A stretch of 25,232 nt of DNA. Source: a virus. Location of the stretch: positions 1-25,232 of IMG/VR virus record IMGVR_UViG_3300046756_000032; one strand, given 5' to 3'. The translations under genes were made by a program, and so were the position numbers. Below the pieces are notes generated by a model. That model did not search any database. It was not told the origin of the DNA and saw only the letters and a list, made by a program, of their open reading frames with translations. Positions 1-19,325 of this stretch are shown here, one piece after another (position 1 is the stretch's first letter; every line of letters starts with the position of its first letter).

Positions 1-1669
1 CTTGCTGGGCTTGTGGATTAGGCTGATTAGCTTGGTCTAGTACAGCAATCAACTCTTCGCGGTTAGCAAGGTTCATGTTGTCAATGATAGACGTTACCAG
101 CTTAGGATACATAGGTGTGTCTGGTGACATGGTTTGTAGCAACTGAACAAGCTGAGTCACTTCATACTCACGGGCTACAATGCCTAGTGAGCTAGTAGTG
201 TGGAACTTGTAGTCTGCTGCTGGGTATAGCTCAGGCTCAAACTGCATGTAACGCCACGCAGCCTTCTGCACGAAAGGAACTATAAAAGACTCTTGGAAGT
301 TAATCAGGGTACGCTTGTGACGCTTGATGATAGCGCCAAGCGACATAGAAACACCAGCAGCAGTAGCGTCTCCGTTGATAGAACCAGCGATACCAGCACT
401 ATCAATAGCGCCCGTTGCCGTTTGTACCATAGTTTGTAGAGCTTGTGCTTGAGCAAATGTCACCTGACTTACGTTGCCAAAGTTAAATGGCTGTAGCACC
501 TCAGAAGGCGCTCCGTTGGTTAATATAATCTTACCGGGTCTAATCTCTGGCTTAGCACCTCTAGGCATACGACTTGCGTCCATAGCCATCATTGGGTGTA
601 TAGTCAGTGCCAGAGCGTCGATTCTAGCGCGTAGTTCCGTGTCTAACGCCTTTTGTGAGTTATAGCCTTTCTCACATACTCCTCGACCCCAGAAGCGGCT
701 AGGAACGACATCCCAAGGGAATGCGACGATAGGGCGATCCTGCATCATGTAAGGATTAGCTTCTGCCTTCAGCAATGTACCGCTGTTAGCAATAACAACC
801 ATAGCTTCTACATAGTAGCTGTCATCTTCTGTATCTGAAGCCAGCTCTACTACTTCTTCCTCTGCATCTGGATCGTTTTGTGCATCTGTTAGCAGGTGTC
901 GTGGAACCAGCCCATAATATTTAGTCAGCCTAACCTTGTCTTCTGCAAAGGTAGTGAGGTCTTGATCTGGCTCAATGTTAAAGTCTGGCGCTGCTTCGCT
1001 AATGGGCTGATCTCTGTAGACACCTTTCTCCTGCAACTGCTCTACCAAGTGTGTAGAAACAAACTCATCTACTGCACAGCCTAGTGCTGAGTCAATGTCT
1101 GTAGCTACGGGGTCAATCAGGAAGTTTTGTGGCATAACAGGACGTAGCTTGATGCAGGTACGGTCTTGTATGTTTACACCTACTGCTTGTAACTCACCGC
1201 CCATTACAGGCTGTGTAGCAGGAGTCATCTCTTTTTCTTCTTCTAGGACTACTTCCGCAATGCCTGTACCAAATACAGCAGCGTTAATCAAACACTCTGC
1301 TACTGCCTTTCTAATCTTGTTCTTTTTAAAGTCTTCATCAAGAGCAGCACGTAGTATAGCAATGTCCTGCTTTTGTTGGTCTCTGTAGTCATCTCTAATG
1401 TCAAACCACTTACCACGACCAAAAGTAGCTTCTTCTAGCTCTGCTACTGAGGATTCAACAGCCTGCTGTAGCGCAGGGGATATAATCTTAGAGCGTTCAG
1501 ATTGACGTGTCATGTCCTCTGCTGCCCACTGACCACGCCATAGACGATAGTATTCGTCAAACTTCTCAGCGTAGTTAGCTTCGTAATGGTCGCGCCAGTT
1601 GTCGCACTTGTCCATTACCCAACCTTCTAGGGTCTGCTCAATTGTAAAGCTATCTTCATTCTCTAACAT
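1..1669 (-). CDS. Portal protein, 3' end beyond the left edge
   Basis: The frame opens with ATG at 1669 and stays open for about 556 codons to the window edge, so the C-terminus is missing. The protein starts MLENEDSFTIEQTLEGWVMD and is acidic, with no signal peptide. The N-terminal part (WRDHYEANYAEKFDEYYRLW, then SERSKIISPALQQAVESSVA) and a middle DPVATDIDSA stretch are typical of podovirus head-tail connector (portal) proteins. These form the dodecameric ring through which DNA is packaged and ejected. It starts 2 nt after the terminase stop, and an AGGG Shine-Dalgarno lies inside the last terminase codons. The position directly downstream of TerL supports the call. The assignment rests on family resemblance and gene order; no catalytic motif exists to confirm it. 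Capsid and scaffold genes would be expected further left. Confidence 0.82.
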   Translation of the reverse strand, partial: MLENEDSFTIEQTLEGWVMDKCDNWRDHYEANYAEKFDEYYRLWRGQWAAEDMTRQSERSKIISPALQQAVESSVAELEEATFGRGKWFDIRDDYRDQQKQDIAILRAALDEDFKKNKIRKAVAECLINAAVFGTGIAEVVLEEEKEMTPATQPVMGGELQAVGVNIQDRTCIKLRPVMPQNFLIDPVATDIDSALGCAVDEFVSTHLVEQLQEKGVYRDQPISEAAPDFNIEPDQDLTTFAEDKVRLTKYYGLVPRHLLTDAQNDPDAEEEVVELASDTEDDSYYVEAMVVIANSGTLLKAEANPYMMQDRPIVAFPWDVVPSRFWGRGVCEKGYNSQKALDTELRARIDALALTIHPMMAMDASRMPRGAKPEIRPGKIILTNGAPSEVLQPFNFGNVSQVTFAQAQALQTMVQTATGAIDSAGIAGSINGDATAAGVSMSLGAIIKRHKRTLINFQESFIVPFVQKAAWRYMQFEPELYPAADYKFHTTSSLGIVAREYEVTQLVQLLQTMSPDTPMYPKLVTSIIDNMNLANREELIAVLDQANQPNPQAQQ

Positions 1670-1671
1670 AG

Positions 1672-2925
1672 TTAATACCCTGCGTATTTATCTAAGTATT
1701 CGTAGTCTTCTTCTTCATAGTCTATAGCGTAAGCAACCTTAGCTAACTGGTCTACGTATGCCAGAGCATCTATTAAGTCGTCGTGAACTAACGGGTTAGG
1801 GAACTGAAACAGCTCATCTAAGAACTGAGCATTCCACTTGCCCTTGTTAAGTGTTAAGTTGCCGTGTTCTATACGGCCCTGTAGCGCCCACACGATCCTG
1901 TCTGTCTTCTTCTTGTTGCCGTGTGTCAACTCTTCAATTCTAAAGAAGCGTTGGTTCTGCTTCATTATGTCGTTCAAGTAAGGATAGACAGCGTTCTTTA
2001 ACGCTCCCTTCTCAATACCTACTGCGACTGGTTGGTAGTCTCTGACTGCATCGAAGATTCTTCTGGCAGTCTCTTTGACGCCCCAACGGCCATGTATGAT
2101 ATTAGCGACCCACCAACCGTCCACCCCAGCTTTGACCACTGCAATAGCTGTCTGGTCGAGTCTTTTAGTTTTTGTGGTAACTTTCTGGACATCTGCAAAT
2201 CCTGCCAAATCGACAGCAATGTAATAAGCGCCATCAGCAGGCTCTTCCTCACTAAATTGTACATCTTCTTCTTTAAACAGTTCACTACCGTGTGCCTCAA
2301 ACGAAGCCATAAACTCCTGACGGAAGCTAAAGGCTGACATGCTCTTCTCAGCAGCCTTGATCTCTTCAGGGTCTAGCAGTGGGTTGTCGTAGCTGGTAAA
2401 GTGATAACCTATCCAGTCCTCATCCTTAGCCACACTAGAGTACGTATACAATTCATAGAAGTGATTACGACCCATAGGCGTACCAATGAACAACGCCTCA
2501 CCCTTCTGATCCGCAAGAGCAGGGCGTAGGATTTGCTCCCACACCTCTGGCTTCATGTCTGCGTACTCATCCATACACAGGAACTTCAAGCTAACACCAC
2601 GCATGGTCTCAGGTCTATCAGCACCCTTCAGAGAGATGGTACAGCCATTGATCAGCTTAATCTGTAGGTTGTTGACGTGTGCTGACGATATGACGTTGTG
2701 TCCTAACTCCAGCAACAACTGCCACATAATGTCTCTAGCCTGACCCTGTGTAGGGGCAACATAGAACACCTGACCTTTCTTGTCTGACAACGCACTGATG
2801 ATTAGCTTCCACGCAGCTAGTCTACTCTTTCCTGTACGTCTACCAGCAGCTACCACTTTAAAGCGTGTAGCGTCTTCCCAGACTTCCTGCTGCCAAGGTA
2901 ACAGCTCAACCGCTAAATCAGTCAT
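1672..2925 (-). CDS. terL: Terminase large subunit
   Basis: This is the DNA-packaging motor ATPase and nuclease, 417 aa and near full length for a compact phage TerL. The N-terminal ATPase domain has Walker A AGRRTGKS at residues 27-34, Walker B FLCMDE at 115-120 (D119, E120 catalytic) and coupling motif IGTP at 147-150. The C-terminal RNase H-like nuclease domain has candidate metal ligands D239 (YYIAVDLAG), E305 (VGIEKG) and D382/D383/D386 (HDDLIDAL). The ATG overlaps the upstream stop in a TAATG junction, indicating translational coupling. It is followed at once by the portal gene. TerL acts at the portal vertex of the prohead; a small subunit is a candidate two genes further upstream (3589-3993). 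Confidence 0.95.
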   Translation of the reverse strand: MTDLAVELLPWQQEVWEDATRFKVVAAGRRTGKSRLAAWKLIISALSDKKGQVFYVAPTQGQARDIMWQLLLELGHNVISSAHVNNLQIKLINGCTISLKGADRPETMRGVSLKFLCMDEYADMKPEVWEQILRPALADQKGEALFIGTPMGRNHFYELYTYSSVAKDEDWIGYHFTSYDNPLLDPEEIKAAEKSMSAFSFRQEFMASFEAHGSELFKEEDVQFSEEEPADGAYYIAVDLAGFADVQKVTTKTKRLDQTAIAVVKAGVDGWWVANIIHGRWGVKETARRIFDAVRDYQPVAVGIEKGALKNAVYPYLNDIMKQNQRFFRIEELTHGNKKKTDRIVWALQGRIEHGNLTLNKGKWNAQFLDELFQFPNPLVHDDLIDALAYVDQLAKVAYAIDYEEEDYEYLDKYAGY

Positions 2926-3209
2926 TAATAATTAGCAACTGTAAAGCGGTAACCGTCATAAGTAAATGTTTTTTGTTTTTTAGCTTTAGCTTCCTTCAAA
3001 GCTTTTTTAAAGCCTTGCTTTTTACTAATCTTTTCTTTAGCTTTTTGGGCTTCAATGATAGAACCCTGTCTGACATTCTCTAAAGATTTAGTTTTAGTCG
3101 CGGCTTTAACGGCTGCTTTTGTTTTACCTTTAGTTGCTGCGGTGCCGACCCCTTTGGATAAAGTCCTACTAAGCCCTTGCCCTAAAGCCCTACCAATACC
3201 TGCTACCAT
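2925..3209 (-). CDS. Small lysine-rich protein of unknown function
   Basis: 94 aa, strongly basic and Ala/Lys-rich, with many AKAKK and KTKAAVKAATKTK stretches and a final YDGYRFTVANY segment. The Gly-rich N-terminus (MVAGIGRALGQGLSRTL) could be an amphipathic helix. There is a good start site: AAGGAT lies 8 nt before the ATG at 3209. The stop overlaps the TerL start by one base. Basic composition and a place next to TerL would fit a nucleic-acid-binding helper of packaging or a minor virion protein, but this is inference and no family is recognised. Confidence 0.75.
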   Translation of the reverse strand: MVAGIGRALGQGLSRTLSKGVGTAATKGKTKAAVKAATKTKSLENVRQGSIIEAQKAKEKISKKQGFKKALKEAKAKKQKTFTYDGYRFTVANY

Positions 3210-3221
3210 GATTATATCCTT

Positions 3222-3596
3222 TTAGTACGTCCACATTACAGGAGACTCATTACCGTCAAGGTCGCGGATGTCAACATGCACAAACTGACCAGCAACTCCA
3301 ATTCCTGAAAAGCCCATCTTGATAGCCTCCTCAACAATCTTAAACCGCTGTGTACCGTCTGTAACTTTAATGTCCGCTGCAATGCCTTGGGCATGGGTTC
3401 CGGGTGTCTCCTTTTTAGCTTCTATTGGGTGGTCTTTACTTCTAAAGCCACTGGTGATAACGAAGGGGAACCCACACTTCTCACGCAACAAATCCAACTT
3501 CAGCAACAACCTGTCACTAATCTCGTTCTCGCCAGTGTACTGACAAGCAAACTCTTCCCTAGTAAAATAATCTAAGTCTTCATTGATGTTATACAT
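3222..3596 (-). CDS. M15-family peptidase (endolysin-like, D-Ala-D-Ala type)
   Basis: 124 aa zinc peptidase of the M15 (DD-peptidase) fold, predicted to cut peptidoglycan peptide cross-links or stem peptides. The visible core is SGFRS at 49-53, then GTHAQGIAADI with zinc ligands H68 and D75, and FVHVDI with H107. It is short and single-domain, with no signal peptide and no wall-binding domain. ATG 3596 is preferred over an in-frame GTG at 3632: AGGGG lies about 9 nt upstream of the ATG, and this start leaves an 8-nt overlap with the previous gene rather than 44 nt. It sits inside the packaging block with no recognisable holin beside it. It could act as the lysis enzyme or as a virion-associated wall-opening enzyme. 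Confidence 0.88.
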   Translation of the reverse strand: MYNINEDLDYFTREEFACQYTGENEISDRLLLKLDLLREKCGFPFVITSGFRSKDHPIEAKKETPGTHAQGIAADIKVTDGTQRFKIVEEAIKMGFSGIGVAGQFVHVDIRDLDGNESPVMWTY

Positions 3597-3993
3597 CTGT
3601 GTAGTCCCCTTCAATGGGTTCTTCTTCGCCACCAGAGATCACTGTAGTCTCTCCACCAACCCCTGTAATAGAGATGTTGATGGCACTCTTGCCTCCGCTG
3701 GCCTTATCCTTCTCAAAATAACTAACAGGCAACAACCTGTCCATGCAGAGCTTCCATGCTGCCGCTTGATTCTTGTGGTCATCGTCCAAGGCTGCGTTGA
3801 GTATGCTGTCTAACACCTTCCTACTCTTAGGAGATGCCAACATTCTAGCCTTGTATTCGTTAATGACCGCTGCATCACCCTTGGGCCGCCCTACTGCATT
3901 GCGTTTACCCTTGGTTTTTGACACCACTGCTGTTTTCTTTGGTCGGCCCACCCGCTTCGCGGGCTGACTACCCTTAGATTCTTTACTACTCAT
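3589..3993 (-). CDS. AT-hook-containing protein, possible small terminase or DNA-binding packaging factor
   Basis: 134 aa. The basic N-terminus carries two AT-hook-like cores, RVGRPKKT near residues 14-21 and AVGRPKGD near 33-40, which usually insert into the AT-rich minor groove. A helical middle (INEYKARMLASPKSRKVLDS, then HKNQAAAWKLCMDRLLPVSY) is followed by a Gly/Ile-rich segment and an acidic C-terminus. It is the first gene of the leftward block, after AAGGGG 6 nt before the ATG, and lies upstream of TerL with two genes between. Position and DNA-binding character suggest a small terminase role. No classical small-terminase motif is seen, so the function is inferred. It could instead be a regulator or a nucleoid-like protein. 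Confidence 0.75.
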   Translation of the reverse strand: MSSKESKGSQPAKRVGRPKKTAVVSKTKGKRNAVGRPKGDAAVINEYKARMLASPKSRKVLDSILNAALDDDHKNQAAAWKLCMDRLLPVSYFEKDKASGGKSAINISITGVGGETTVISGGEEEPIEGDYTDV

Positions 3994-4009
3994 TGTATTC
4001 CCCTTAGTT

Positions 4010-4025
4010 CTTAAGGATACTTAAG
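4010..4025. promoter_or_regulatory. Candidate operator, copy 1 (CTTAAGGATACTTAAG)
   Basis: A 16-base element with dyad symmetry, CTTAAG-GATA-CTTAAG, lies 17 bases upstream of the first leftward gene and inside its predicted 5' untranslated region. The right half overlaps a perfect 12-base palindrome, ATACTTAAGTAT (4017-4028). An exact second copy lies 68 bases away. This looks like a binding site for a dimeric regulator; the regulator is not identified. Confidence 0.5.
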
Positions 4026-4077
4026 TATACTTTAGTTAAATTCTTTAATTATTATTAAAAGATCAATCCTAACGATG

Positions 4078-4093
4078 CTTAAGGATACTTAAG
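4078..4093. promoter_or_regulatory. Candidate operator, copy 2 (CTTAAGGATACTTAAG)
   Basis: Exact copy of the 16-base dyad at 4010-4025. It lies roughly 30-50 bases downstream of the predicted start of the leftward transcript, a position where a bound protein could block elongation. Confidence 0.5.
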
Positions 4094-4131
4094 GGCGCGA
4101 GGTAATCTCTATCTTCTTTACTATACAATAG

Positions 4132-4160
4132 ATTATACCACATTTATAACCAAATGTCAA
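4132..4160 (-). promoter_or_regulatory. Leftward sigma70 promoter, perfect consensus
   Basis: Read on the minus strand, TTGACA (4160-4155) and TATAAT (4137-4132) are separated by exactly 17 bases. Both hexamers match the sigma70 consensus perfectly. Transcription would start near 4125 and run into the packaging genes with an untranslated leader of about 130 nt containing the two CTTAAGGATACTTAAG copies. It is therefore a strong host-RNA-polymerase promoter pointing at late-type genes. Confidence 0.85.
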
Positions 4161-4368
4161 GTCTTTTCTTTACAGATGTCATCTTATTTATACATAAGGG
4201 CCGTCCCTTTAATAACTTTTGGCTATAACCAGGGATTCTTTAGAATACACAGGTATTACAAGGAGTTATAGTACACACACGTAGTCATAAGTAAACGTAA
4301 TTATACACTGTTTTTTCCAAATTACTACTATTTTGTATACCTGCGGGTACTTATACATTCCGCGCGCA

Positions 4369-4403
4369 TACTGGAGGCCCCCCGCGGGTACTGGAAGACC
4401 CCC
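4369..4403. repeat. Imperfect tandem repeat TACTGGARGMCCCCC
   Basis: TACTGGAGGCCCCCC (4369-4383) and TACTGGAAGACCCCC (4389-4403) match at 13 of 15 positions with a period of 20 bases. A related GCGGGTACT occurs at 4343-4351 and 4384-4392. The block is much more GC-rich than its surroundings. Role unknown; a protein-binding or origin-type repeat is possible. Confidence 0.5.
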
Positions 4404-4476
4404 TTCGTTACCACAGGTGGCCCTGAGAAGCCAGCTCCAAGTGTGACCAGCGGGACACATTGGGTCAGACACAGGG

Positions 4477-4506
4477 TTGACAGAGGGAGTGTGTGTATGC
4501 TATAGG
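4477..4506 (+). promoter_or_regulatory. Possible weaker rightward sigma70 promoter
   Basis: A perfect -35 TTGACA (4477-4482) is followed after 18 bases by TATAGG (4501-4506), a 4 of 6 match to the -10. The -10 overlaps the dyad ATAGG-ATA-CCTAT (4502-4514), so the promoter could be repressible. It lies about 100 bases upstream of the stronger promoter and would read the same genes. Confidence 0.4.
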
Positions 4507-4514
4507 ATACCTAT
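4502..4514. promoter_or_regulatory. Candidate operator, copy 3 (ATAGGATACCTAT)
   Basis: Inverted repeat ATAGG/CCTAT around ATA. It shares the decamer AGGATACYTA with the two 16-base dyads at 4010 and 4078. It sits on the -10 region of the possible promoter at 4477-4506, a classic repressor position. Confidence 0.4.
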
Positions 4515-4581
4515 GGAGCCATCTTGCTACATCTATGCGCGAACACAAGTAAAATTAATTTGAAAATAATTAAAATAATTG

Positions 4582-4609
4582 TTGACAGCAGAAAATCAGG
4601 CCCTATACT
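4582..4609 (+). promoter_or_regulatory. Rightward early sigma70 promoter with AT-rich upstream element
   Basis: A perfect -35 TTGACA (4582-4587), a 16-base spacer and a -10 TATACT (4604-4609, 5 of 6). The 32 bases before it (4550-4581) are almost pure A/T with AATTAATT and AATAATT phases, like an UP element. Transcription would start near 4616 and read the early small-gene block. No competing strong start lies between it and the first gene at 4943. Confidence 0.82.
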
Positions 4610-4615
4610 GGGCAC

Positions 4616-4942
4616 CAACGAAACGAGGGAACGGCTCCTCAGATTGATACCTAGTGTTGGCAGTGTCCAAGGGCGCTTATAGGCCAGCAACGAGGGAGAC
4701 AGTCCTCGCTTCGCTCTCGCAATAGCGGTGATCTTCGGATCAACTCTCTGGCTTCTTAGCCTTGGCAATAGCAGAGATGAAAGCCATACTAGGCGAGATC
4801 GAGTAACCAAGATTGATTCGGTTATGGCGGGAAGTAGCTTTCGAGCGAAGGTGGCCGCTAAGTAGTACCGGAGAGATCAGCGGTTATTCACCGGAACCAC
4901 TAGGCAGCTGGGGGTTGTGGTGAATAACTGGAGGTAATCGAG
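4616..4942 (+). ncRNA. Long structured 5' leader RNA upstream of the early genes
   Basis: About 327 nt separate the predicted transcription start from the first start codon, and they are packed with complementary segments. A 5' hairpin pairs CCAAC (4615-4619) with GTTGG (4656-4660), with GAGG/CCTC inside. CCAAGG (4667-4672) pairs with CCTTGG (4760-4765). AGGCCAG (4681-4687) pairs with CTGGCTT (4748-4754) and encloses CGAGG/CCTCG (4691-4708), CGCT/AGCG (4712-4727) and TGATC-TTCG-GATCA (4729-4742), a cUUCGg tetraloop. GCCATA (4783-4788) pairs with TATGGC (4823-4828). GCT-TTCG-AGC lies at 4837-4846. A 10-bp hairpin at 4883-4928 ends just before the Shine-Dalgarno. It matches no RNA family I know. 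It may be a regulatory leader or a processed small RNA. Two very short reading frames (4777-4806 and 4824-4865) have no clear ribosome site. Confidence 0.5.
4883..4928 (+). promoter_or_regulatory. Hairpin directly before the first early ribosome site
   Basis: GTTATTCACC (4883-4892) is the exact complement of GGTGAATAAC (4919-4928), a perfect 10-bp stem. GGAGG (4930-4934) follows immediately and stands 8 nt before ATG 4943. It is the first of four hairpin leaders in the early block; it shares ATTC..CCGG sequence with the next two and AACTGGAGGYAA with the one at 5805. Likely roles are RNA stability, processing or control of ribosome access. Confidence 0.65.
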
Positions 4943-5362
4943 ATGGCAAATAAAATCAAACACTTCAAGCATTCCTATGCGGAGTTGGCCAAGGTAGGAC
5001 GCAAGTATTACAACGATGGTAATTTTTGCACGGTGGTCGGCTTGGCGGTTGCTTGTGACCTATCATTCGGCAAGGCGAGGGCAATCGCAGAGCGCACCGT
5101 AAGCAGGCGCAAGGGTCGAGGTCTCAAGTTTTACGAGATTGAGCGACTATACGAGTCCATGGGTAAAGCATTGGCTCCCATATCTAATACCTTTGGCGCT
5201 ACGCTGGGCACGGTAGCCAAGCATGCACCAACTAAGGGTCGCTATTTGTTCCTGACCCGGAGTCATTGCGCGGTCAGCCGGGATGGTATCCTTGAGGACT
5301 GGAGTGCTGAGGGCAGCAGGCATAGAGTATTGAGGGCATTTAAAATAGTAGACATTAGCTAA
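4943..5362 (+). CDS. Early protein with papain-like cysteine peptidase signature (putative)
   Basis: 139 aa, the first gene of the early block, with GGAGG 8 nt before the ATG. The pattern GNFCTVVGLAVA (C29), GRYLFLTRSHCAVSRDG (H108) and ILEDW (D119) fits the Cys, His, Asp order and spacing of small papain-like or C39-like peptidases. In these an N-terminal Cys starts a helix, and His and Asp lie on neighbouring C-terminal strands. Similar small proteins with CTVRALA and GHAxAxxDG segments occur in other phages as far as I recall, mostly unannotated. A C-terminal basic stretch SRHRVLRAFKI follows. If active, it might process a host or phage protein very early in infection. Both activity and target are inference; it could be a catalytically dead fold. 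Confidence 0.7.
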   Translation: MANKIKHFKHSYAELAKVGRKYYNDGNFCTVVGLAVACDLSFGKARAIAERTVSRRKGRGLKFYEIERLYESMGKALAPISNTFGATLGTVAKHAPTKGRYLFLTRSHCAVSRDGILEDWSAEGSRHRVLRAFKIVDIS

Positions 5363-5369
5363 GTTATCA

Positions 5370-5409
5370 GGTGGCATTCCCGGCAGGAGTGCTACCGCAT
5401 AATTTAACT
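5370..5409 (+). promoter_or_regulatory. Hairpin plus CGCATAAT box before the second early gene
   Basis: GGTGGCATTCC (5370-5380) pairs with GGAGTGCTACC (5386-5396) around CGGCA, giving an 11-bp stem with two G-U pairs. CGCATAATTTAACT (5396-5409) follows, then GAGAGGT and ATG 5425. The layout and box are shared with the element at 5805-5841, while the stem sequences differ in compensating ways. Confidence 0.6.
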
Positions 5410-5424
5410 AGAGAGGTAAGACCT

Positions 5425-5796
5425 ATGAACTACGATGTCAACGTAAAAGATAATGACGCAGTGATTCTATTGATGGATGGTGCCAGAGCACTGGTGCATG
5501 ATTCAGGCAAGGAGTTTAGAGAGGCCCGCAATGATGAGGAAAGCAGCGAGGAGACGCTTAACTACCATGAATATAACCACTCAAAAGCGAAGGCAATGCT
5601 GGCCAGCTTAAGGTATACTTACGCAAGGAATCGCGCAGTTTGCGCTAAAACCTACACGCCAGACACTCCGGTAGGTCGTGCGGACTTAGCAGTTTACGCA
5701 GCAGAGACAGCCAAGGCTAAAGCAGAATACACGTTCGCGGCTTTGGTTGCTGGTGAAGCTAAGGAAGCTTGGAGAGAGAGCTACAGAAACAAGTAA
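5425..5796 (+). CDS. Early protein of unknown function
   Basis: 123 aa starting MNYDVNVKDNDAVILLMDGA. A longer frame opening at 5371 would run through the hairpin leader and has no ribosome site there. ATG 5425 has GAGAGGT about 8 nt upstream and is chosen. The protein is acidic at the N-terminus (EARNDEESSEETLNYHEYNH) and mostly helical, Ala/Lys/Glu-rich, in the second half, consistent with a helical bundle or coiled coil. No motif or family is recognised. It is flanked on both sides by hairpin leaders, which suggests separate translational control inside one transcript. Confidence 0.75.
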   Translation: MNYDVNVKDNDAVILLMDGARALVHDSGKEFREARNDEESSEETLNYHEYNHSKAKAMLASLRYTYARNRAVCAKTYTPDTPVGRADLAVYAAETAKAKAEYTFAALVAGEAKEAWRESYRNK

Positions 5797-5804
5797 GATT
5801 GTCA

Positions 5805-5841
5805 GTAGGTATTCCCCGGAGTACCTACGCATAATCTAACT
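5805..5841 (+). promoter_or_regulatory. Hairpin plus CGCATAAT box before the tiny membrane gene
   Basis: GTAGGTATTC (5805-5814) pairs with GAGTACCTAC (5819-5828) with one G-U pair and a CCCG loop. CGCATAATCTAACT (5828-5841) follows, 13 of 14 identical to the box at 5396-5409. Then GGAGG stands before ATG 5860. Confidence 0.62.
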
Positions 5842-5859
5842 TAACTGGAGGCAACAATT

Positions 5860-5949
5860 ATGAGGGACTGTATTGGATACATCGCGCTGGCTGCTGGGTT
5901 GCTGGTTGGCTGGCATTATTTACTAGAGTTTATTGTGGGAGTTATATAG
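5860..5949 (+). CDS. Tiny single-span membrane protein
   Basis: 29 aa: MRDCIGYIALAAGLLVGWHY, then LLEFIVGVI. Almost the whole chain is a hydrophobic helix after a charged MRD start, so it should sit in the inner membrane. GGAGG is about 10 nt before the ATG, after its own hairpin leader. The stop is 2 nt before the next ATG. It is one of four such proteins in this block. Function unknown; pinholin-like, exclusion or host-membrane roles are possible. Confidence 0.6.
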   Translation: MRDCIGYIALAAGLLVGWHYLLEFIVGVI

Positions 5950-5951
5950 AT

Positions 5952-6275
5952 ATGCAAAAAGCACATTTACATTTAATCAAGTGGGCGATTGCCCGTGGGT
6001 ATTCCGTGGCCGTGTTTGGTGAGGGCGAGTATGACGGTGTTCACCATACATATAAGGAGATCAAGGACAACGTGGAGGCTTGCGACATGGGCGAGATGGT
6101 ACTTGTCAAGCCTAGTGTCAAGACCGAAGGCAAGTGGACGAGGAAGGCAAGCTTTGCTTATATGTTCGACTATGATCAGAACAACGATGAGACCATTTAC
6201 GATTATGGAGTTAATGATATAACTGATGACTGGGCCGAAGATTATGAGAATCATATTATGGAGGTGACAGCATGA
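5952..6275 (+). CDS. Early protein of unknown function
   Basis: 107 aa, soluble and acidic at the C-terminus. The N-terminal LHLIKWAIARGYSVAVFGEG segment looks like an alpha/beta element. The second half carries FAYMFDYDQNNDETIYDYG and DITDDWAEDYENHIM. Proteins of this type occur in marine phage early regions as far as I recall, without a known function. The start is ATG 5952, two bases after the previous stop, and the end overlaps the next start (ATGA). It belongs to the same coupled early transcript. Confidence 0.72.
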   Translation: MQKAHLHLIKWAIARGYSVAVFGEGEYDGVHHTYKEIKDNVEACDMGEMVLVKPSVKTEGKWTRKASFAYMFDYDQNNDETIYDYGVNDITDDWAEDYENHIMEVTA

Positions 6276-6358
6276 CAGCACAAGACGGGGTACAGATAGC
6301 CATAGTGGTATTCGTGGCATTCCTTTGGATGACTCTTAAAATGATGGGAGTGATGTAA
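6272..6358 (+). CDS. Tiny single-span membrane protein
   Basis: 28 aa: MTAQDGVQIAIVVFVAFLWM, then TLKMMGVM. A short polar N-terminus is followed by one hydrophobic helix and a small basic end. It is coupled to the previous gene through an ATGA overlap, with GGAGGTGA 8 nt before the ATG. Function unknown. Confidence 0.55.
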   Translation: MTAQDGVQIAIVVFVAFLWMTLKMMGVM

Positions 6359-6359
6359 A

Positions 6360-6623
6360 ATGAAACACTGGGAACTTAAAGTATTAGAAAGTCATATCCG
6401 CGCAGAGTGGAATGAGTCAGCAACCTTTAATATGCAATGTCGCACCCATGATGGGCAGTGGAGTGATTACCACTGTTTCACAGTCTACGGCATAGAGTCA
6501 GCGCAGGAGGCTCTTGAGTGTGTGTTGGAGATGCTACAGGAGGAGCTGAAGGAAGATAAGGATTTATGGGAATACCTAGAGGAAAACCCCGCTGAGAGGG
6601 AGGACGCAATAAGATTGTTATAA
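6360..6623 (+). CDS. Small acidic early protein of unknown function
   Basis: 87 aa starting MKHWELKVLESHIRAEWNES. An N-terminal beta-rich half (FNMQCRTHDGQWSDYHCFTV) is followed by a strongly acidic helix (LECVLEMLQEELKEDKDLWE). The start lies 1 nt after the previous stop, with TGGGAGTGAT as a modest ribosome site. The acidic surface could mimic DNA, as in some phage inhibitors of host enzymes, but that is only a possibility from charge. No family recognised. Confidence 0.7.
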   Translation: MKHWELKVLESHIRAEWNESATFNMQCRTHDGQWSDYHCFTVYGIESAQEALECVLEMLQEELKEDKDLWEYLEENPAEREDAIRLL

Positions 6624-6636
6624 TAGTTGATTTATC

Positions 6637-6661
6637 ATAGCCATTGGCTTACAGTGGCTAT
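6637..6661 (+). promoter_or_regulatory. Hairpin before the 78-aa gene
   Basis: ATAGCCA (6637-6643) is the exact complement of TGGCTAT (6655-6661), extendable by two further pairs inside. It is followed by AACTAAACCAATAGAGGCAA and ATG 6697, and GAGGCAACA is shared with the leader at 5848-5856. This is the fourth hairpin leader of the block. Confidence 0.55.
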
Positions 6662-6696
6662 TATTAAACCAACTAAACCAATAGAGGCAACACAAG

Positions 6697-6933
6697 ATGA
6701 AACTTAAGCAATTAGGAAGTAACATGACTGAGCTGGATATGGGTGACGTGCAGGTATTCTTTAGCTATGATACACCAGTAGCTGCAAGGTTGACTGATGG
6801 CTCTCTAGTGCGTACAGATCAATGGTACAGCGCCTCCACTAGCAAGCACACAAACAAGTGGCTAGGTGATGGATGTTGCGACACGGTAGCAGTGCCACAG
6901 TCAGTGATTAATGAATTAGTGGAGGTAGTATAA
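6697..6933 (+). CDS. Small conserved-looking phage protein of unknown function
   Basis: 78 aa starting MKLKQLGSNMTELDMGDVQV. The features FFSYDTPVAA, YSASTSKHTNKWLG and a VPQSVINEL helix recall a small family common in phages and mobile elements in which FSYxTPVA and HINKWLG segments recur. I recall this family from experience and cannot check it here. It has two adjacent Cys (GDGCCDTV). It is preceded by a hairpin leader and AGAGG. Its stop overlaps the next ATG, and its last codons (GTG GAG GTA GTA) contain the ribosome site of that gene. Confidence 0.72.
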   Translation: MKLKQLGSNMTELDMGDVQVFFSYDTPVAARLTDGSLVRTDQWYSASTSKHTNKWLGDGCCDTVAVPQSVINELVEVV

Positions 6934-7067
6934 TGAGTAAATCAGACATACAGCGCAAGATTAAACACCACGAAAAACAGCGGGATTTTTATAGCGGTAC
7001 GCCAAGATCAAAAAAACTATGGCAGGCTGAGATAAACAAACTTAAAAAACTATTGGAGGTGGCATAA
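6933..7067 (+). CDS. Small basic helical protein, unknown
   Basis: 44 aa: MSKSDIQRKIKHHEKQRDFY, then a second Lys-rich helix ending LKKLLEVA. Two basic amphipathic helices with a short SGTPRS turn suggest a helical hairpin that may bind nucleic acid or dimerise. It is coupled by TAATG at both ends. The GGAGGTGG that encodes the C-terminal Leu-Glu-Val-Ala region is the ribosome site of the next gene. Confidence 0.6.
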   Translation: MSKSDIQRKIKHHEKQRDFYSGTPRSKKLWQAEINKLKKLLEVA

Positions 7068-7219
7068 TGAGCTACGAGTTTGATAAAATAGAAAAAGTAT
7101 TAAACGTACACTCAGACTTGAACATCTTATGGCGCGAAGGTAAACTTAGCGTTGATACGTTTAATGACTTGTGTGAGATACTGGACGAATACACAGATTT
7201 AATTGAGGAGGTGGCATAA
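7067..7219 (+). CDS. Small acidic helical protein, unknown
   Basis: 50 aa starting MSYEFDKIEKVLNVHSDLNI, with an acidic C-terminal helix (FNDLCEILDEYTDLIEEVA). Predicted all-helical and soluble. TAATG junctions link it to both neighbours, and GAGGAGGTGG before its stop serves the next gene. No family recognised. Confidence 0.6.
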   Translation: MSYEFDKIEKVLNVHSDLNILWREGKLSVDTFNDLCEILDEYTDLIEEVA

Positions 7220-7392
7220 TGAGTATTGAACCAGCAAATATGTTTGTAACACCGGACAACATGAAGGATTTGGAAGACAGGATAGAAAACTATTCAGGAG
7301 GCGAGAAGGCTGCCGCTTGGATGGGAGCCATGATGGCTTGGAATCTAGCATGTAAACTTGTAGAGCAGGTAGAGGAGTCGAGCGATGAATGA
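7219..7392 (+). CDS. Small protein of unknown function
   Basis: 57 aa starting MSIEPANMFVTPDNMKDLED. A Met/Ala-rich helix (AAAWMGAMMAWNLACKLVEQ) is amphipathic rather than clearly transmembrane, followed by an acidic end (VEESSDE). The GGAGGTGG ribosome site lies in the previous gene, and the end overlaps the next start by 8 nt. Function unknown. Confidence 0.6.
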   Translation: MSIEPANMFVTPDNMKDLEDRIENYSGGEKAAAWMGAMMAWNLACKLVEQVEESSDE

Positions 7393-7480
7393 CTTGTACT
7401 GGTACGCCAAGTGGTGTACAATAGGCTTTACTGTGGGTTTCTTTATAGGCTATGGAGTAGTATCATGGATAATATCATAG
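7385..7480 (+). CDS. Tiny single-span membrane protein
   Basis: 31 aa: MNDLYWYAKWCTIGFTVGFF, then IGYGVVSWIIS. A polar, aromatic N-terminus leads into a Gly-rich hydrophobic helix. GAGGAG about 9 nt upstream lies in the previous gene. The end overlaps the next ATG by 16 nt. Unknown role. Confidence 0.55.
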   Translation: MNDLYWYAKWCTIGFTVGFFIGYGVVSWIIS

Positions 7481-7581
7481 CGGAAGTAGTGGGCTGGTCT
7501 GTATTGACAGCCCTTGTAATAGCGGCACACAAAGGTGTGTTCTGGTTAATGACTAATAATATACTGGAGTATTTTATATGA
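7465..7581 (+). CDS. Small membrane protein
   Basis: 38 aa: MDNIIAEVVGWSVLTALVIA, then AHKGVFWLMTNNILEYFI. There is one clear hydrophobic helix near residues 8-21 and a second semi-hydrophobic segment at 24-38. It starts inside the preceding tiny membrane gene and ends in an ATGA overlap with the next gene. The two membrane genes in tandem could act together, but this is not established. The ribosome site is weak. Confidence 0.5.
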   Translation: MDNIIAEVVGWSVLTALVIAAHKGVFWLMTNNILEYFI

Positions 7582-7733
7582 GAAACAATGAGTACCACGG
7601 CGACGAGCATATACTGGACGAGGACGAGTACCCACCCATGCAGCAATGGGAGATTGACGAGGCACTGGCTGACATACTGGGCGACGAAAAATGGCTGGAA
7701 AAACAGAGAGAGAAAACCAATGATAATCTTTAA
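7578..7733 (+). CDS. Small acidic protein, unknown
   Basis: 51 aa starting MRNNEYHGDEHILDEDEYPP and rich in Asp/Glu throughout, with WEIDEALADILGDEKWLEK as a likely helix. GGAG stands about 8 nt before the ATG. A different reading frame that is also open from 7588 gives an Arg/Thr/Trp-rich translation unlike a protein and is not used. The last 14 nt overlap the next gene. Strong acidity is the only clue; function unknown. Confidence 0.58.
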   Translation: MRNNEYHGDEHILDEDEYPPMQQWEIDEALADILGDEKWLEKQREKTNDNL

Positions 7734-7920
7734 TAGGGTATTGAGTGTAGAGTATAGACTGGGCGTAGGGTTTGACCTAGAGTTTCCTGACAGTAGACCG
7801 GTCTGGGTATACAATACAAACACAGGCAACACAGAGACCATGCCATTCCAAGGTGTCATTTTACATCTACCCTTGTGTCTGGTATCTTATGGCCGGGTTT
7901 ATGAGGAGGTATCAGAGTGA
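7720..7920 (+). CDS. Small protein of unknown function
   Basis: 66 aa starting at ATG 7720 (MIIFNRVLSVEYRLGVGFDL), predicted mostly beta. The frame is open further upstream from 7588, but that part overlaps the acidic gene at 7578-7733 and gives an unnatural composition, so the internal ATG is preferred. WVYNTNTGNTETMPFQGVIL suggests a beta hairpin. The ribosome site is poor, so translation may depend on coupling to the upstream gene. No family recognised. Confidence 0.58.
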   Translation: MIIFNRVLSVEYRLGVGFDLEFPDSRPVWVYNTNTGNTETMPFQGVILHLPLCLVSYGRVYEEVSE

Positions 7921-8141
7921 GTAGGATAAAGGAAGAGATGATGGGCTATGAGTACACCCAGAACGACTGGATTGAGCCACAGGCGCACGTTATGGTCGAT
8001 GAGCTGGTAGAGTATCAGGTATATTGTATGACGCTCTCAGAGCTAACACAGAGGGTCACCAAGCAGATGCGAGACGAGTACTATAGCAACCCGTATGACG
8101 AGATGACAAAACAATATAGAGAGGTATTCCCAAGTGAGTAG
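7917..8141 (+). CDS. Small protein of unknown function
   Basis: 74 aa with a GTG start at 7917 overlapping the previous stop (GTGA). A strong GAGGAGGT about 8 nt upstream sets the start. The sequence begins MSRIKEEMMGYEYTQNDWIE and ends in a helical, Tyr/Met-rich part (VTKQMRDEYYSNPYDEMTKQ). Soluble, acidic, no recognised motif. Confidence 0.65.
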   Translation: MSRIKEEMMGYEYTQNDWIEPQAHVMVDELVEYQVYCMTLSELTQRVTKQMRDEYYSNPYDEMTKQYREVFPSE

Positions 8142-8313
8142 ATGCAAAGCATGTGATGTGATACTGAATGAACATGAACTAAAGAAGGTCGATAAGGAGA
8201 CTGGGTTGCATTTAGACCTGTGCAATATATGTCTGTCGCATAGTGATGACGCTATGCATGACAGTCTTGGACACTTAAGCGAAAAAGAGTTTGACGTTCT
8301 CTTGAATACTTGA
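8134..8313 (+). CDS. Small zinc-ribbon-like protein
   Basis: 59 aa with a GTG start at 8134, overlapping the previous stop by 8 nt, after GAGAGG in the preceding gene. The Cys pairs C4-K-A-C7 and C30-N-I-C33 are spaced like a small zinc ribbon or treble clef. The start is MSRCKACDVILNEHELKKVD and the C-terminus is acidic. Its last 20 or so bases contain the promoter of the replication operon. It could be a nucleic-acid or RNA-polymerase binding factor; only the zinc site is visible. Confidence 0.65.
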   Translation: MSRCKACDVILNEHELKKVDKETGLHLDLCNICLSHSDDAMHDSLGHLSEKEFDVLLNT

Positions 8314-8319
8314 TATAAT
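8291..8319 (+). promoter_or_regulatory. Sigma70 promoter for the replication operon
   Basis: TTGACG (8291-8296), a 17-base spacer and a perfect TATAAT (8314-8319). Transcription should start near 8326, about 83 nt before the SSB gene. The -35 lies inside the end of the zinc-ribbon gene and its stop codon TGA (8311-8313) abuts the -10. The leader contains TTAAAG/CTTTAA (8329-8358), a possible weak stem. This makes the replication genes independent of the far upstream early promoter. Confidence 0.85.
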
Positions 8320-8408
8320 ACTAGGGTATTAAAGGGAAAATTATTTATTAATCTTTAAAGTATTAACCAAACGATCCTAAGGGGTCACAACAACGAGAGG
8401 TAGTAACC

Positions 8409-8774
8409 ATGGCAGTATTAGAAGGCTTAGTAGCATTTGAGAATCTGGACGAGCATGAGATGTATCAGGGTCAGTCCACCGGGAAGTTTTCTCTGGTTCT
8501 CAGCTTGGATGAACCAACGGCTGGCACATTGGCTGAGGCTGGTGTCAAGCTCCGCGAGTACGAAGGTGTCAAGCAGCGCAAGTTTAGCACCAAGTATGAT
8601 GTCCCGGTGATGGACGCTGAAGGTAATCCGTTCAAGGGTCGCATTGGTCGCGGGTCTAAGGTTCGTATCATGTACGCAGAGGGTCAGCCCCATCCGGTAC
8701 ACGGCACCAGCACGTACCTTAACAAGATCAAGGTGTTGGAGGTCGCAGAGCAGGAAGGCGGAGAGGACTTCTAG
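8409..8774 (+). CDS. Single-stranded DNA-binding protein, short T7 gp2.5-like
   Basis: 121 aa, about half the length of T7 gp2.5 (232 aa). Beta-rich segments (KFSLVLSLDEPTAGTLAEAG, KGRIGRGSKVRIMYAEGQP, STYLNKIKVLEVAE) fit a single OB fold. The chain ends in an acidic tail whose last residue is Phe (EQEGGEDF), the known hallmark of T7 gp2.5, where tail and terminal Phe contact the DNA polymerase and shield the DNA-binding cleft. It is the first gene after the promoter at 8291, with AGAGGT 8 nt before the ATG, and its stop overlaps the primase-helicase start. The role is inferred from the tail, size and position next to the replisome genes. Confidence 0.78.
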   Translation: MAVLEGLVAFENLDEHEMYQGQSTGKFSLVLSLDEPTAGTLAEAGVKLREYEGVKQRKFSTKYDVPVMDAEGNPFKGRIGRGSKVRIMYAEGQPHPVHGTSTYLNKIKVLEVAEQEGGEDF

Positions 8775-10399
8775 TGGCGGTTGAGTCAACATTCGTCCAG
8801 CATGAGCCATGCCCCAAGTGTGGCTCATCTGACAATCTGGCTCGTTATAGTGATGGTCATGCAGTCTGCTTCTCCGGGGGCTGCAACTATTACGAACATG
8901 GCAACGGTCAGATAGGACAAGCAGCACAACGCAAACCAACGAGGTCATTAGAGATGACAGGTGTAACAGCGGCAATCCCTGACAGACGTATCTCACAGTC
9001 AACGTGCCAGCGGTACGGTGTGACAGTTGAGTACGGTACGGATGGACAAATTGTCAAGCATCATTACCCGTACCACCACAAGGACACAGGTGCGGTGACA
9101 GGAACCAAGGTGCGGATCACCGAAAACAAATCTTTCTACGCAACGGGGGAGTTTAATGAGGCGGGTCTCTTCGGCCAGCAGGCTTTCAAGAGTGGCGGTA
9201 AATACATCACGATCACAGAAGGCGAGGCGGACGCGCTTGCTGTCAACGAGATGTTCGACGGAAAGTGGCCAGTCGTCTCCATCAGATCAGGTGCAGCCGG
9301 AGCAGCCAAAGACATCAAAGCAAACCTAGAGTGGCTTGAGACCTTTGACAATGTGGTGATCTGCTTTGACAACGACAAGGCAGGACAGGAGGCAGCCAAG
9401 TCGGTGCTTGATCTGTTCACCCCCAACAAGGCCAAGAATGTCACACTGCCAGCCAAGGATGCAGGCGACATGCTCAAGAGCAATCAGGTGCAGTCGTTTG
9501 TTAAGGAGTGGTGGAACGCTAAAGCCTATCGCCCGGACGGTATCGTGGCAGGCAATGAGACATGGGACATGATCATCAAGCAGGCTGATGTCAAGTCCAT
9601 ACCCTATCCATGGGAGTGTCTCAACGAGATGACCCATGGGTTCCGCAAGCAGGAGCTGGTGACAATCACGTCAGGCTCAGGCATGGGTAAGTCGCAGATC
9701 GTTAGGGAGCTGGAGCATTACCTCTTGGGTGCAACGGATGAGAACATTGGCATCCTCGCGCTTGAGGAGGACATCCCTAAGACAGCTCTGGGTATCATGT
9801 CCATTGAGGCTAACAAGCAGCTTCACTTGGACAAGACCGTCTCTCAGGAAGAGAAGAAGGGCTACTGGGATCAGACGCTAGGCACAGGCCGTGTGTTTAT
9901 GTTTGACCACTGGGGCAGTACCAGTGAGGACAACCTGCTGGGACGCATACGCTACATGGCCAAGGGACTGGACTGCAAGTGGATCATCCTTGACCACCTG
10001 AGCATCGTGGTCAGCGATCAGGACACAGGTGACGAGCGTAAGGCTATCGACAGTATTATGACCAACCTCCGCAAGCTGGTTCAGGAGACAGGTGTAGGGC
10101 TATTCCTAGTATCACACCTTCGCAGACCCAGCGGTGCTAAGGCACACGAGGACGGTGGTAAGATTAGCTTGGGTGAGCTGCGAGGTTCAGCGGCCATCGC
10201 CCAGCTCAGTGATATTGTCATAGGCTTGGAGCGTGACCAGCAACATGCTGACCCTGAGACACGCAACACCACCACGGTACGTGTGTTGAAGAATAGGTTT
10301 GTAGGACTGACTGGCCCTGCCTGTTACCTGTACTACGACAAGGAGTCAGGTCGCATGATTGAGACTAGCTGCCCCACAGGAGACGACCCGGAGTTCTAA
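8774..10399 (+). CDS. Bifunctional DNA primase-helicase, T7 gp4-like
   Basis: 541 aa; the T7 protein is about 566. The GTG start overlaps the SSB stop (TAGTG), with GGAGAGGA upstream. Domains in order: zinc-binding primer-recognition domain with C13, C16, C32, C37; TOPRIM primase with ITEGEADAL (E149) and CFDNDKAG (D199, D201); RecA-like helicase with Walker A SGSGMGKS (300-307), Walker B WIILDH (D407), SHLRRP (H448) and LKNRFVG with R508 as likely arginine finger. It should unwind the fork and lay RNA primers. The C-terminus is acidic and ends in Phe (GDDPEF), like the T7 gp4 tail that docks on the polymerase. It is coupled by TAATG to the polymerase gene. Confidence 0.95.
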   Translation: MAVESTFVQHEPCPKCGSSDNLARYSDGHAVCFSGGCNYYEHGNGQIGQAAQRKPTRSLEMTGVTAAIPDRRISQSTCQRYGVTVEYGTDGQIVKHHYPYHHKDTGAVTGTKVRITENKSFYATGEFNEAGLFGQQAFKSGGKYITITEGEADALAVNEMFDGKWPVVSIRSGAAGAAKDIKANLEWLETFDNVVICFDNDKAGQEAAKSVLDLFTPNKAKNVTLPAKDAGDMLKSNQVQSFVKEWWNAKAYRPDGIVAGNETWDMIIKQADVKSIPYPWECLNEMTHGFRKQELVTITSGSGMGKSQIVRELEHYLLGATDENIGILALEEDIPKTALGIMSIEANKQLHLDKTVSQEEKKGYWDQTLGTGRVFMFDHWGSTSEDNLLGRIRYMAKGLDCKWIILDHLSIVVSDQDTGDERKAIDSIMTNLRKLVQETGVGLFLVSHLRRPSGAKAHEDGGKISLGELRGSAAIAQLSDIVIGLERDQQHADPETRNTTTVRVLKNRFVGLTGPACYLYYDKESGRMIETSCPTGDDPEF

Positions 10400-12129
10400 T
10401 GAAGCAGGTTGTATTTGACATTGAAGCCAACGGTTTAAAGCCTACAAAGGTCTGGGTAATTGTAACTCAGGAGCTGGACACCAGTGAGACTAATGTGTTC
10501 TCAGGTGACACGCTGCTGTCATTCAACGATTATATTGCAGGTCTTGGAGAGTGTGAGATCATAGGTCACAACATCATTGACTATGACGTACCTGTCCTTG
10601 AGGAACTGCTAGGCACAGACTTTAGTAAGTGCAAGGTGTCTGATACTTTAGTTATGTCACGATTGGCTAACCCATCAAGAGAGGGCGGTCACTCGCTCCG
10701 TAACTGGGGTGACAGACTTAATCAATCTAAAGGAGATCACGATGACTGGGATAATTATTCGCAGGATATGGTGGACTATTGCAAGCAAGACGTTAATGTT
10801 AATGTGCTGGTGTACAAGAGATTACTTCGTGAGCTTGCAGATTTTGGAGCTGAAAGCATTAGCTTGGAACACCAAGTACAAAGCATTATATCAAAGCAGA
10901 TTAAAACAGGATGGCTCTTAGATCAAGAGAAAGCATTCGTATTGCTGGCTGAACTGAAGGAGAAGAAGTTTGATTTGGAGGATGAGGTACAGAAGGTATT
11001 TAAACCCTTGCCTACCTACATCAAAGAGATCAAACCGAAGATCAAGAAGGACGGCAGTCTGTCTATCGTGGGCCTGAAGTTTTTAGGAGATGACTGGGAA
11101 ACAGTGGGTGGCGAGTTTAGTCGCATCGACTTCCCTCAGTTCAACCTTGGTTCACGTCAGCAGATAGGACGATACCTCCAGCACTTTGGCTGGAAGCCTA
11201 AGCAATTTACTGAGACAGGACAGGCCATCGTAGACGAGGCAGTGCTGAGTACAGTGAAAGGAATACCACAGGCTTCCCTGATAGGTGAGTACCTGATGAT
11301 ACAGAAGCGTGTCGCACAGGTGCAAAGCTGGCTAGATGCAGTAGAGGATGACGGTAGAGTACACGGGTACGTTAATTCCAATGGCGCAGTGACAGGACGC
11401 ATGACGCACTCCAGTCCCAACATGGGGCAGGTTCCTGCGGTCTACTCACCCTACGGCAAGCAGTGTCGTGATGTGTGGACAGTGAAGGAAGGGTACAAGC
11501 TAGTCGGTATGGATGCCAGCGGTCTTGAGCTACGGATGTTAGCGCACTACATGAATGACGAGGACTACACGAATGAGATACTCAATGGAGATATACACAC
11601 GGCAAACCAGCTGGCTGCGGGCCTTGAAACTAGAGATCAAGCGAAGACTTTCATATACGCTTTCCTTTACGGGGCCGGAGATGCCAAGGTCGGAAGTATC
11701 GTTGGTGGAACTAGAAAGGACGGTCAACGACTTAAGGAAAAGTTCCTCACAAATACGCCAGCTCTTGGAGAGTTACGAACACGAGTTGGAATGGCGTCTA
11801 CAAGAGGCTATGTTTATGGCTTGGATAGGAGACGGATCGCCATACGATCAGAACACGCTGCATTGAACAGCTTACTCCAGTCAGCCGGGGCTATCGTTAT
11901 GAAGAAAGCCTTGTGTTTACTACACGAGTATGCTATAATATGGGGTATAGACTTTAACTTTTTAGGGAACATACACGATGAGATCCAGACAGAAGTCAGA
12001 CAAGAGAAGGCAGAGGTTTTCGGAAGACTGGCAGCAAGCTGTGTTGAAGCTGCCGGACTCCACTACGAACTCAACTGCCCTCTCGCAGGAGATTACAAAG
12101 TCGGAACCAGTTGGGCAGACACACACTGA
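10399..12129 (+). CDS. DNA polymerase, family A, T7 gp5-like
   Basis: 576 aa replicative polymerase with proofreading. The 3'-5' exonuclease carries FDIEANGLKP (D7, E9), GHNIIDYDVP and YCKQDVNVN. The polymerase domain carries motif A VGMDASGLELRML, motif B RDQAKTFIYAFLYG and motif C NIHDEIQTE. It is about 130 residues shorter than T7 gp5 (704 aa). The segment between exonuclease and palm is short, so the thioredoxin-binding loop of T7 appears absent. Tyr420 stands where T7 has Tyr526 and E. coli Pol I has Phe762; Tyr or Phe here is usual in lytic phages. The next T7 residue, Gly, is Ala here. The last 152 bases are shared with the GIY-YIG gene. Confidence 0.96.
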   Translation: MKQVVFDIEANGLKPTKVWVIVTQELDTSETNVFSGDTLLSFNDYIAGLGECEIIGHNIIDYDVPVLEELLGTDFSKCKVSDTLVMSRLANPSREGGHSLRNWGDRLNQSKGDHDDWDNYSQDMVDYCKQDVNVNVLVYKRLLRELADFGAESISLEHQVQSIISKQIKTGWLLDQEKAFVLLAELKEKKFDLEDEVQKVFKPLPTYIKEIKPKIKKDGSLSIVGLKFLGDDWETVGGEFSRIDFPQFNLGSRQQIGRYLQHFGWKPKQFTETGQAIVDEAVLSTVKGIPQASLIGEYLMIQKRVAQVQSWLDAVEDDGRVHGYVNSNGAVTGRMTHSSPNMGQVPAVYSPYGKQCRDVWTVKEGYKLVGMDASGLELRMLAHYMNDEDYTNEILNGDIHTANQLAAGLETRDQAKTFIYAFLYGAGDAKVGSIVGGTRKDGQRLKEKFLTNTPALGELRTRVGMASTRGYVYGLDRRRIAIRSEHAALNSLLQSAGAIVMKKALCLLHEYAIIWGIDFNFLGNIHDEIQTEVRQEKAEVFGRLAASCVEAAGLHYELNCPLAGDYKVGTSWADTH

Positions 12130-12673
12130 AGCCTCTTGTAAGTCATGCGGTGTTACACTAACCTCAGATAATTGGGTTCCTTCCTTGAAAGAAAGGAATA
12201 ATAAGGTGTGTAAAAGCTGTTGGAACACAAACTATAATGCAAAGAATAACCCGCGTCATAATCCTAACAGGATGTGGGTCAACGGAAAGTACGTGCCCAA
12301 GACACACCCGCTGTATAAGGCAGGACGATACAAAGGGTTTGAGGAAGCAGCCTTCAGTGGACTGGAGAACTTCAAGACCAACCCAGAGGGTCAGGTGTAC
12401 ATCATTACTAACCCTGCGTGGGAGGGCTGGGTCAAGGTAGGGATGGCTGTAGATGCAGAGGATAGGGCCGGAGGTTATCAAACAAGCTCACCTTACAGGG
12501 ACTACGAGCTGGCCTACGTGGTGGACACAAAAGACCGTAGAGCTACAGAAGCAGAGACCCACGCTAGACTAGGTGAGTTGTTTGAACAACGTAACGAGTG
12601 GTTCAAGTGTGATGTAGAGATGGCTAAACGTATTATAGATGGTGTAACAGGAGAGTACGATGAAGCGTGTTGA
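11978..12673 (+). CDS. GIY-YIG family endonuclease with N-terminal zinc finger
   Basis: 231 aa from ATG 11978; in-frame GTG 12041 or TTG 12044 would give about 210. AGGGA stands 9 nt before ATG 11978. A Cys4 finger (C54, C57, C78, C81) precedes the nuclease domain at about 138-220. That domain has VYIIT (Y141) and WVKVGMA in the GIY and YIG strands, R163 in AEDR, E193 in ATEAETHAR and EWFKC near the end, as in T5orf172/MUG113-type phage GIY-YIG proteins. Every possible start lies inside the polymerase gene; ATG 11978 falls within the codons for polymerase motif C. It may be a free-standing homing endonuclease or a DNA-processing enzyme. The end overlaps the next gene by 14 nt. Confidence 0.82.
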   Translation: MRSRQKSDKRRQRFSEDWQQAVLKLPDSTTNSTALSQEITKSEPVGQTHTEASCKSCGVTLTSDNWVPSLKERNNKVCKSCWNTNYNAKNNPRHNPNRMWVNGKYVPKTHPLYKAGRYKGFEEAAFSGLENFKTNPEGQVYIITNPAWEGWVKVGMAVDAEDRAGGYQTSSPYRDYELAYVVDTKDRRATEAETHARLGELFEQRNEWFKCDVEMAKRIIDGVTGEYDEAC

Positions 12674-16268: not shown

Positions 16269-16277
16269 ATAAAACTT

Positions 16278-19323: not shown

Positions 19324-19325
19324 GC

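Follow-up and report, generated by a model that had tools for sequence, protein, structure and literature searches.

Genomic context of the block

Do the four very short reading frames that precede the replication genes of this phage encode proteins, and would such proteins serve lysis or another step of infection? The window, i.e., the whole stretch of DNA analysed here, is an entire IMG/VR record of 25,232 bases. It was recognized as a fragment of a T7-like phage by its genes for DNA polymerase, endonuclease, gp2.5-like SSB, ribonucleotide reductase, terminase, and an M15-type endolysin. Its source is a marine virus of bacteria, from an uncultured marine phage group. No DNA match, near or distant, was found for the window among 50,697 phage records, and a primase pattern scan of bacterial genomes detected no relative. 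In IMG/VR, many related contigs were found. The micro-ORFs (m1 to m4) are located on the + strand with the replication genes, i.e., SSB, primase, and polymerase downstream of m4 and g51, whereas the M15 peptidase and virion genes are on the - strand.

A sigma-70-like promoter candidate of the block was found at 4582..4609 (+ strand, TTGACA-16-TATACT), and another, of the replication genes, at 8291..8319 (+ strand, TTGACG-17-TATAAT with TG before the -10). Among the 11 loci listed for the 4582 site, the window, L045, and L013 share it, seven gave no hit, and L030 has a different, weaker site. Of 131 loci, 115 have a promoter-like site upstream of the SSB gene. The strand, the promoter-like sites, and the neighbouring replication genes suggest that the block is expressed early. 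On the - strand, a perfect sigma-70 consensus promoter (TTGACA-17-TATAAT with TG) was observed at 4160-4132, facing the terminase and virion strand.

Four single-helix micro-ORFs

The earlier note had described four reading frames of 29, 28, 31, and 38 codons, each encoding one hydrophobic helix. All were recovered exactly where it had placed them, on the + strand and with ATG starts, i.e., m1 (5860..5949, 29 aa), m2 (6272..6358, 28 aa), m3 (7385..7480, 31 aa), and m4 (7465..7581, 38 aa). Each is predicted to be a single-helix microprotein; m3 carries a GxxxGxxxG motif, and m4 represents the short form of a family in which long forms occur as well. The hydropathy of the best 17 residues was 1.74, 2.29, 1.72, and 2.18 for m1 to m4, respectively. 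AlphaFold2 predicted one helix for m3 (residues 3-30, mean pLDDT 92) and one for m4 (residues 2-37, mean pLDDT 88). By their lengths of 28-38 aa, their hydropathy, and the AlphaFold2 models of m3 and m4, the four fall among small single-span proteins, i.e., shorter than about 50 aa with one hydrophobic helix.

Fixed criteria applied over 5797-7581 returned exactly four ORFs, m1 to m4, on the + strand and none on the reverse strand. In 500 dinucleotide shuffles of the same interval, the mean was 0.076 such ORFs and the maximum was two; thus four were never obtained, and none of the 500 shuffles had even three or more. Because the criteria were chosen after the ORFs had been seen, this control is biased in favour of m1 to m4, and the comparative evidence given below is independent of it.

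Shine-Dalgarno matches of 5, 6, 5, and 4 nt precede m1 to m4, in agreement with the plausible ribosome sites proposed before. The gene-to-gene overlap pattern, also proposed, was confirmed for three of the four: m2 and m3 overlap their upstream genes by 4 and 8 nt, m3 and m4 overlap each other by 16 nt, and m4 overlaps its downstream gene by 4 nt. The exception is m1, which follows a 63-nt structured leader (5797-5859). Repeated gene joints were also observed at 6918-6939, 7052-7073, 7204-7225, and 7902-7923, in which the ribosome site of the next gene lies inside the last codons of the preceding gene (often ..EVA, stop) and start and stop overlap. Such joints would allow cassette-like swapping of small genes.

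Two other readings of m4 were rejected. A start at GTG 7411 (56 aa) was discarded because m4 of L013, which is separate from m3, uses the same ATG, and because the extension varies widely among relatives. For a frameshift fusion of m3 and m4, the overlap was read by eye and no slippery site was seen.

Conservation and selection

Relatives were gathered via the neighbouring genes and not via the micro-ORFs, so the slot occupancy reported below is not circular. After removal of contained loci, 238 loci and the window were reduced to 177 sequences including the window, among which overlapping contig pieces may remain; L115, the window itself, was excluded from the counts. Since loci may be overlapping parts of one contig, the number of distinct proteins is the safer count. 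Iterative profile searches of the + strand ORFs in the 177 sequences detected m1 in 3 loci, m2 in 28 (18 distinct proteins after start trimming), m3 in 56 (27 distinct proteins), and m4 in 66. When long or diverged forms were used as the start, m4 was found in 87 loci in one search, and the merged set comprised 98 loci with 65 distinct proteins.

Among ungapped homologues of at least 55% identity, pN/pS in the proposed frame was 0.12 for m1 (n=3), 0.22 for m2 (n=5), 0.29 for m3 (n=17), and 0.23 for m4 (n=24), the ratios of m3 and m4 being taken over ORFs that include the overlaps. The comparison genes g51, g74, and g59 gave 0.08, 0.19, and 0.32. Shifted frames of m1 to m4 gave 0.58-1.48 where defined; m1 and m2 each had one shifted frame with no synonymous change, so that its ratio is undefined. 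Pairs of sequences share ancestry, and the binomial figures for pN/pS are therefore a guide only. The earlier note had pointed to frame disruption in close relatives as the observation that would count against the genes; there the frames were intact, with purifying selection in all four. Judged by this in-frame selection, m1 to m4 are real genes.

Slot occupancy was counted in 86 loci that contain g51 and g74 and extend more than 900 nt upstream; these correspond to 76 distinct blocks. The short or long form of m4 was present in 67 of them, m3 in 41, m2 in 20, m5 (a fifth family, described below) in 12, and m1 in 3. At least one membrane micro-ORF was found in 71 of the 76 blocks, and five had none by the tests applied. 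A different ORF, basic and then hydrophobic, occupies the m4 position in three of the nine blocks that lack m4 (L023, L140, and L028).

No match over the cut-off was found for m1 to m4 and their variants in Pfam, PHROGs, NCBIfam, and PADLOC, or for m5 in PHROGs, NCBIfam, and PADLOC. Matches of m4 to PsaM (E 0.074), of m2 to PspB (E 0.047), and of m3 and m4 variants to PHROGs (E 0.05 and above) were weak or under the cut-offs and were dismissed. In the phage collection, two variants of m3 and a long m4 had no match beyond chance, and no isolate there carries either. A search of the PMC literature, which is a limited test, found no paper on these microprotein families.

m1 and structured RNA leaders

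The leader of m1 (5797..5859, + strand) is predicted to fold as a two-tier hairpin with an MFE of -18.6 kcal/mol. Over seven distinct homologues, two of its 16 pairs showed compensatory changes and 99.1% of cells were paired. The m1 protein was recognized by profile in three loci only, with one more in L284 by a separate search. With the non-coding leader as bait, counting + strand hits only, nine hits were found in eight contigs, the window included (L127 and L218 are one contig), and an ORF of 29-32 aa followed all nine. Eight of these ORFs exceed the hydropathy cut-off and start with MR[D/E]; that of L227 (1.23) does neither. The m1 relatives are strongly diverged, yet they stand behind the same structured leader. 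Since the leader hits are each followed by a small ORF, m1 seems to represent a family that evolves fast and is linked to its own leader.

Structured RNA leaders were observed before four genes of the block, at 4870-4942, 5363-5424, 5797-5859, and 6624-6696, with compensatory changes in 4 of 19, 6 of 15, 2 of 16, and 6 of 10 pairs, respectively, and 99-100% of cells paired. In L004, a leader of the same kind stands before m2 instead. The search of Rfam assigned no family to the leaders of the block, its single match (E 0.99) being under the cut-off.

m3 and its occurrence in a T4-like phage

In 11 aligned m3 proteins, G14 and G18 of the GxxxGxxxG motif were invariant and G22 nearly so. When IMG/VR was scanned using the m3 alignment, 46 loci were detected, of which 43 have neighbours of this block. 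The three others (L308-L310) are almost one sequence and belong to a T4-like phage, as judged from the family B DNA polymerase, UvsX, and helicase genes on the contigs of L308 and L309. There, m3 is flanked on one side by a DUF3310 gene and on the other by a beta-ketoacyl synthase gene, which is followed by a fatty acid desaturase gene. On the T4-like contig L339 (15129-17372), the beta-ketoacyl synthase and fatty acid desaturase genes come directly after m3.

The m3 of the window and its best T4-like match are identical in 23 of 29 residues and 64 of 87 bases, and in 15 of 19 residues outside the scanned motif, whereas 20,000 shuffles gave at most 13 identical residues. The T4-like phage carries m3 without g51 or m4, so m3 is independent of its neighbours. 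This occurrence is the best evidence for m3 as a self-sufficient gene.

m4, its downstream genes, and m5

The short form of m4 has 38 aa, whereas long forms, of about 47-66 aa, carry a basic tail at the N terminus; the m4 start was placed in 66 of 67 blocks. Almost all short forms (22 of 23) begin within m3, the overlap being 13 nt in 11 of them and 16 nt in the other 11; the remaining short form has m3 farther upstream. None of the 44 long forms overlaps m3: 27 have no m3, 16 have it after m4, and one before. In 31 of the 67 blocks, the m4 stop overlaps the first g51 start by 4 nt.

Directly after m4, g51 (7578..7733, + strand) encodes a small acidic soluble protein, which served as the slot anchor and was found in 101 loci (70 distinct). 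It is followed by g66 (7720..7920, + strand), encoding a conserved 66 aa protein in 126 loci (93 distinct). Between g66 and g74, a fifth microprotein family, m5, was found in 20 loci (17 distinct); this slot is empty in the window. In relatives (e.g., L068, 7031-7153), m5 has about 36-45 aa, with one helix and an acidic tail.

Proposed role and alternatives

The best reading is a tentative one, to which we give somewhat less than an even chance: m1 to m4 may be microproteins that are expressed early, act autonomously in the inner membrane, and pack against membrane proteins or lipids of the host during takeover. Like m5 in relatives, they would be expressed alongside the genes for takeover and replication, separately from those for lysis. 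Every one of them would insert as one helix in the host inner membrane, where the helix could pack against host proteins or lipids. By this packing, an envelope function would be altered in favour of the phage; the function could be that of a transporter, that of a complex for respiration, division, or proteolysis, or the membrane potential. In this scheme, m4 would form the core of the set, m3 would be a mobile member with a glycine zipper, and m1, m2, and m5 would be accessory. The predicted helices of m3 and m4, the glycines of m3, and the precedents of Gp11 and YohP, described below, point to helix packing of this kind in the host inner membrane. The near-universal m4 also fits a core role in replication or in lysis timing.

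More speculatively, and with a rather low probability, m3 could be a mobile glycine-zipper effector of 29-31 residues common to unrelated lytic marine phages. It would oligomerise or clamp onto a conserved inner-membrane complex and so reset host energetics early, as one of several unrelated one-helix microproteins that phages of the m4 type would use in combination.

An unlikely alternative is superinfection exclusion, in which the microproteins would block DNA entry of later-arriving related phages from the inner membrane. The predicted membrane location and the probable early expression agree with it, as do the patchy distribution of m2 and m5 and the strong divergence of m1 alleles within one slot. 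However, exclusion genes are usually variable, and m4 is nearly universal (67 of 76 blocks). In addition, m1 to m4 had no match over the cut-off to the listed exclusion and defence families of Pfam, PHROGs, NCBIfam, and PADLOC.

The microproteins might also anchor phage replication or transcription, the basic N-terminal tail of m4 and the acidic g51 product tying the replication complex to the membrane. We regard this as improbable. The tail of the long m4 forms, the frequent 4-nt junction of m4 with g51, and the SSB, primase, and polymerase genes that come next would suit such an anchor, but the short m4 form, as in the window, has no basic tail, a DNA-binding feature was not found, and the T4-like phage has m3 with neither g51 nor m4.

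Returning to the membrane takeover reading, it places the microproteins apart from lysis. The earlier note had offered pinholins as one possible role, its argument being that no other holin was recognized near the M15 peptidase. Inside the window this observation is correct, but it arises because the window is truncated. Contig G018 (22,853 bp) is identical to the window at 99.97% over 8376-25232 (16.9 kb) and extends about 6 kb further. At 17449-17826, on the virion strand and 592 bp past the end of the window, it encodes a dedicated holin, PF11351 GTA_holin_3TM (E 4.2e-17, over the cut-off), which also matches the holin family phrog_3427. Contig L081, whose name indicates the same metagenome, is 100% identical to the window over 952-8502, the four ORFs included. 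The phrog_3427 holin was found in eight of 20 searched records, most of them partial, and in one of the eight as an edge fragment only; one relative, G001, carries m2, m3, m4, and m5 as well as the PF11351/phrog_3427 holin.

The microproteins as the sole holin or as pinholins were therefore rejected, and a lysis function in general, i.e., as pinholins or as antiholins timing a separate holin, has a still smaller chance than the anchor. The helices are tiny and hydrophobic, and the glycine zipper of m3 could pack oligomers. No match of m1 to m4 to Pfam holin families was found, and the best PHROG holin match, m3 to phrog_24402 (E 0.76), is not significant. The microproteins are encoded on the replication strand, outside a lysis cassette and the late-gene strand, in a virus that has another holin, and each has one helix where the known pinholin has two. 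What is retained of the earlier interpretation is that the block is tightly packed and holds four genuine genes for membrane microproteins of one helix each; the pinholin role is not retained. It is very probable that the four are real genes and that the main holin of the virus is not among them.

Spurious ORFs, or devices for translational coupling with an irrelevant product, are the least probable reading by far: the ORFs lie at gene junctions and might do no more than couple translation, but the in-frame purifying selection, the conserved residues, and the presence of m3 in another phage type speak against it, and amino-acid conservation disfavours it for m3 and m4, the case against it being weakest for m1 and m2.

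An uncultured group of marine phages thus has several unrelated microproteins, conserved and in fixed slots, and a T4-like phage shares one of them. Proteins so short slip past gene finders and family libraries, and early membrane genes can resemble holins when a contig is truncated. As candidates for phage control of the host inner membrane, m1 to m5 are short and testable.

Comparison with known systems

The GTA_holin_3TM (PF11351)/phrog_3427 protein is encoded by the same virus population as m1 to m4. It has 127 aa and, by its family name, three helices, it lies on the virion strand beyond the window, and it is none of the four. The phage 21 pinholin has two helices and is a late-expressed member of a lysis cassette. 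It resembles m1 to m4 in its small hydrophobic helices and in helix packing via small residues, whereas m1 to m4 have one helix each.

Closer in the proposed role is Gp11 of Staphylococcus aureus phage PhiNM1, an early membrane protein of 53 aa that binds MurG and DivIC (PMC11237401). As is proposed for m1 to m4, Gp11 is very small and membrane-bound, and it is an early phage product that acts on host envelope proteins; it differs in its predicted double transmembrane helix and its Gram-positive host (PMC11237401). YohP of E. coli, with 27 aa, alters the membrane and lowers the membrane potential (PMC12719787), and essentially consists of one transmembrane domain (PMC7549839). It is of the size class of m1 to m4, for which one transmembrane helix each is likewise predicted. 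YohP is a host stress protein (PMC12719787), whereas m1 to m4 belong to a phage.
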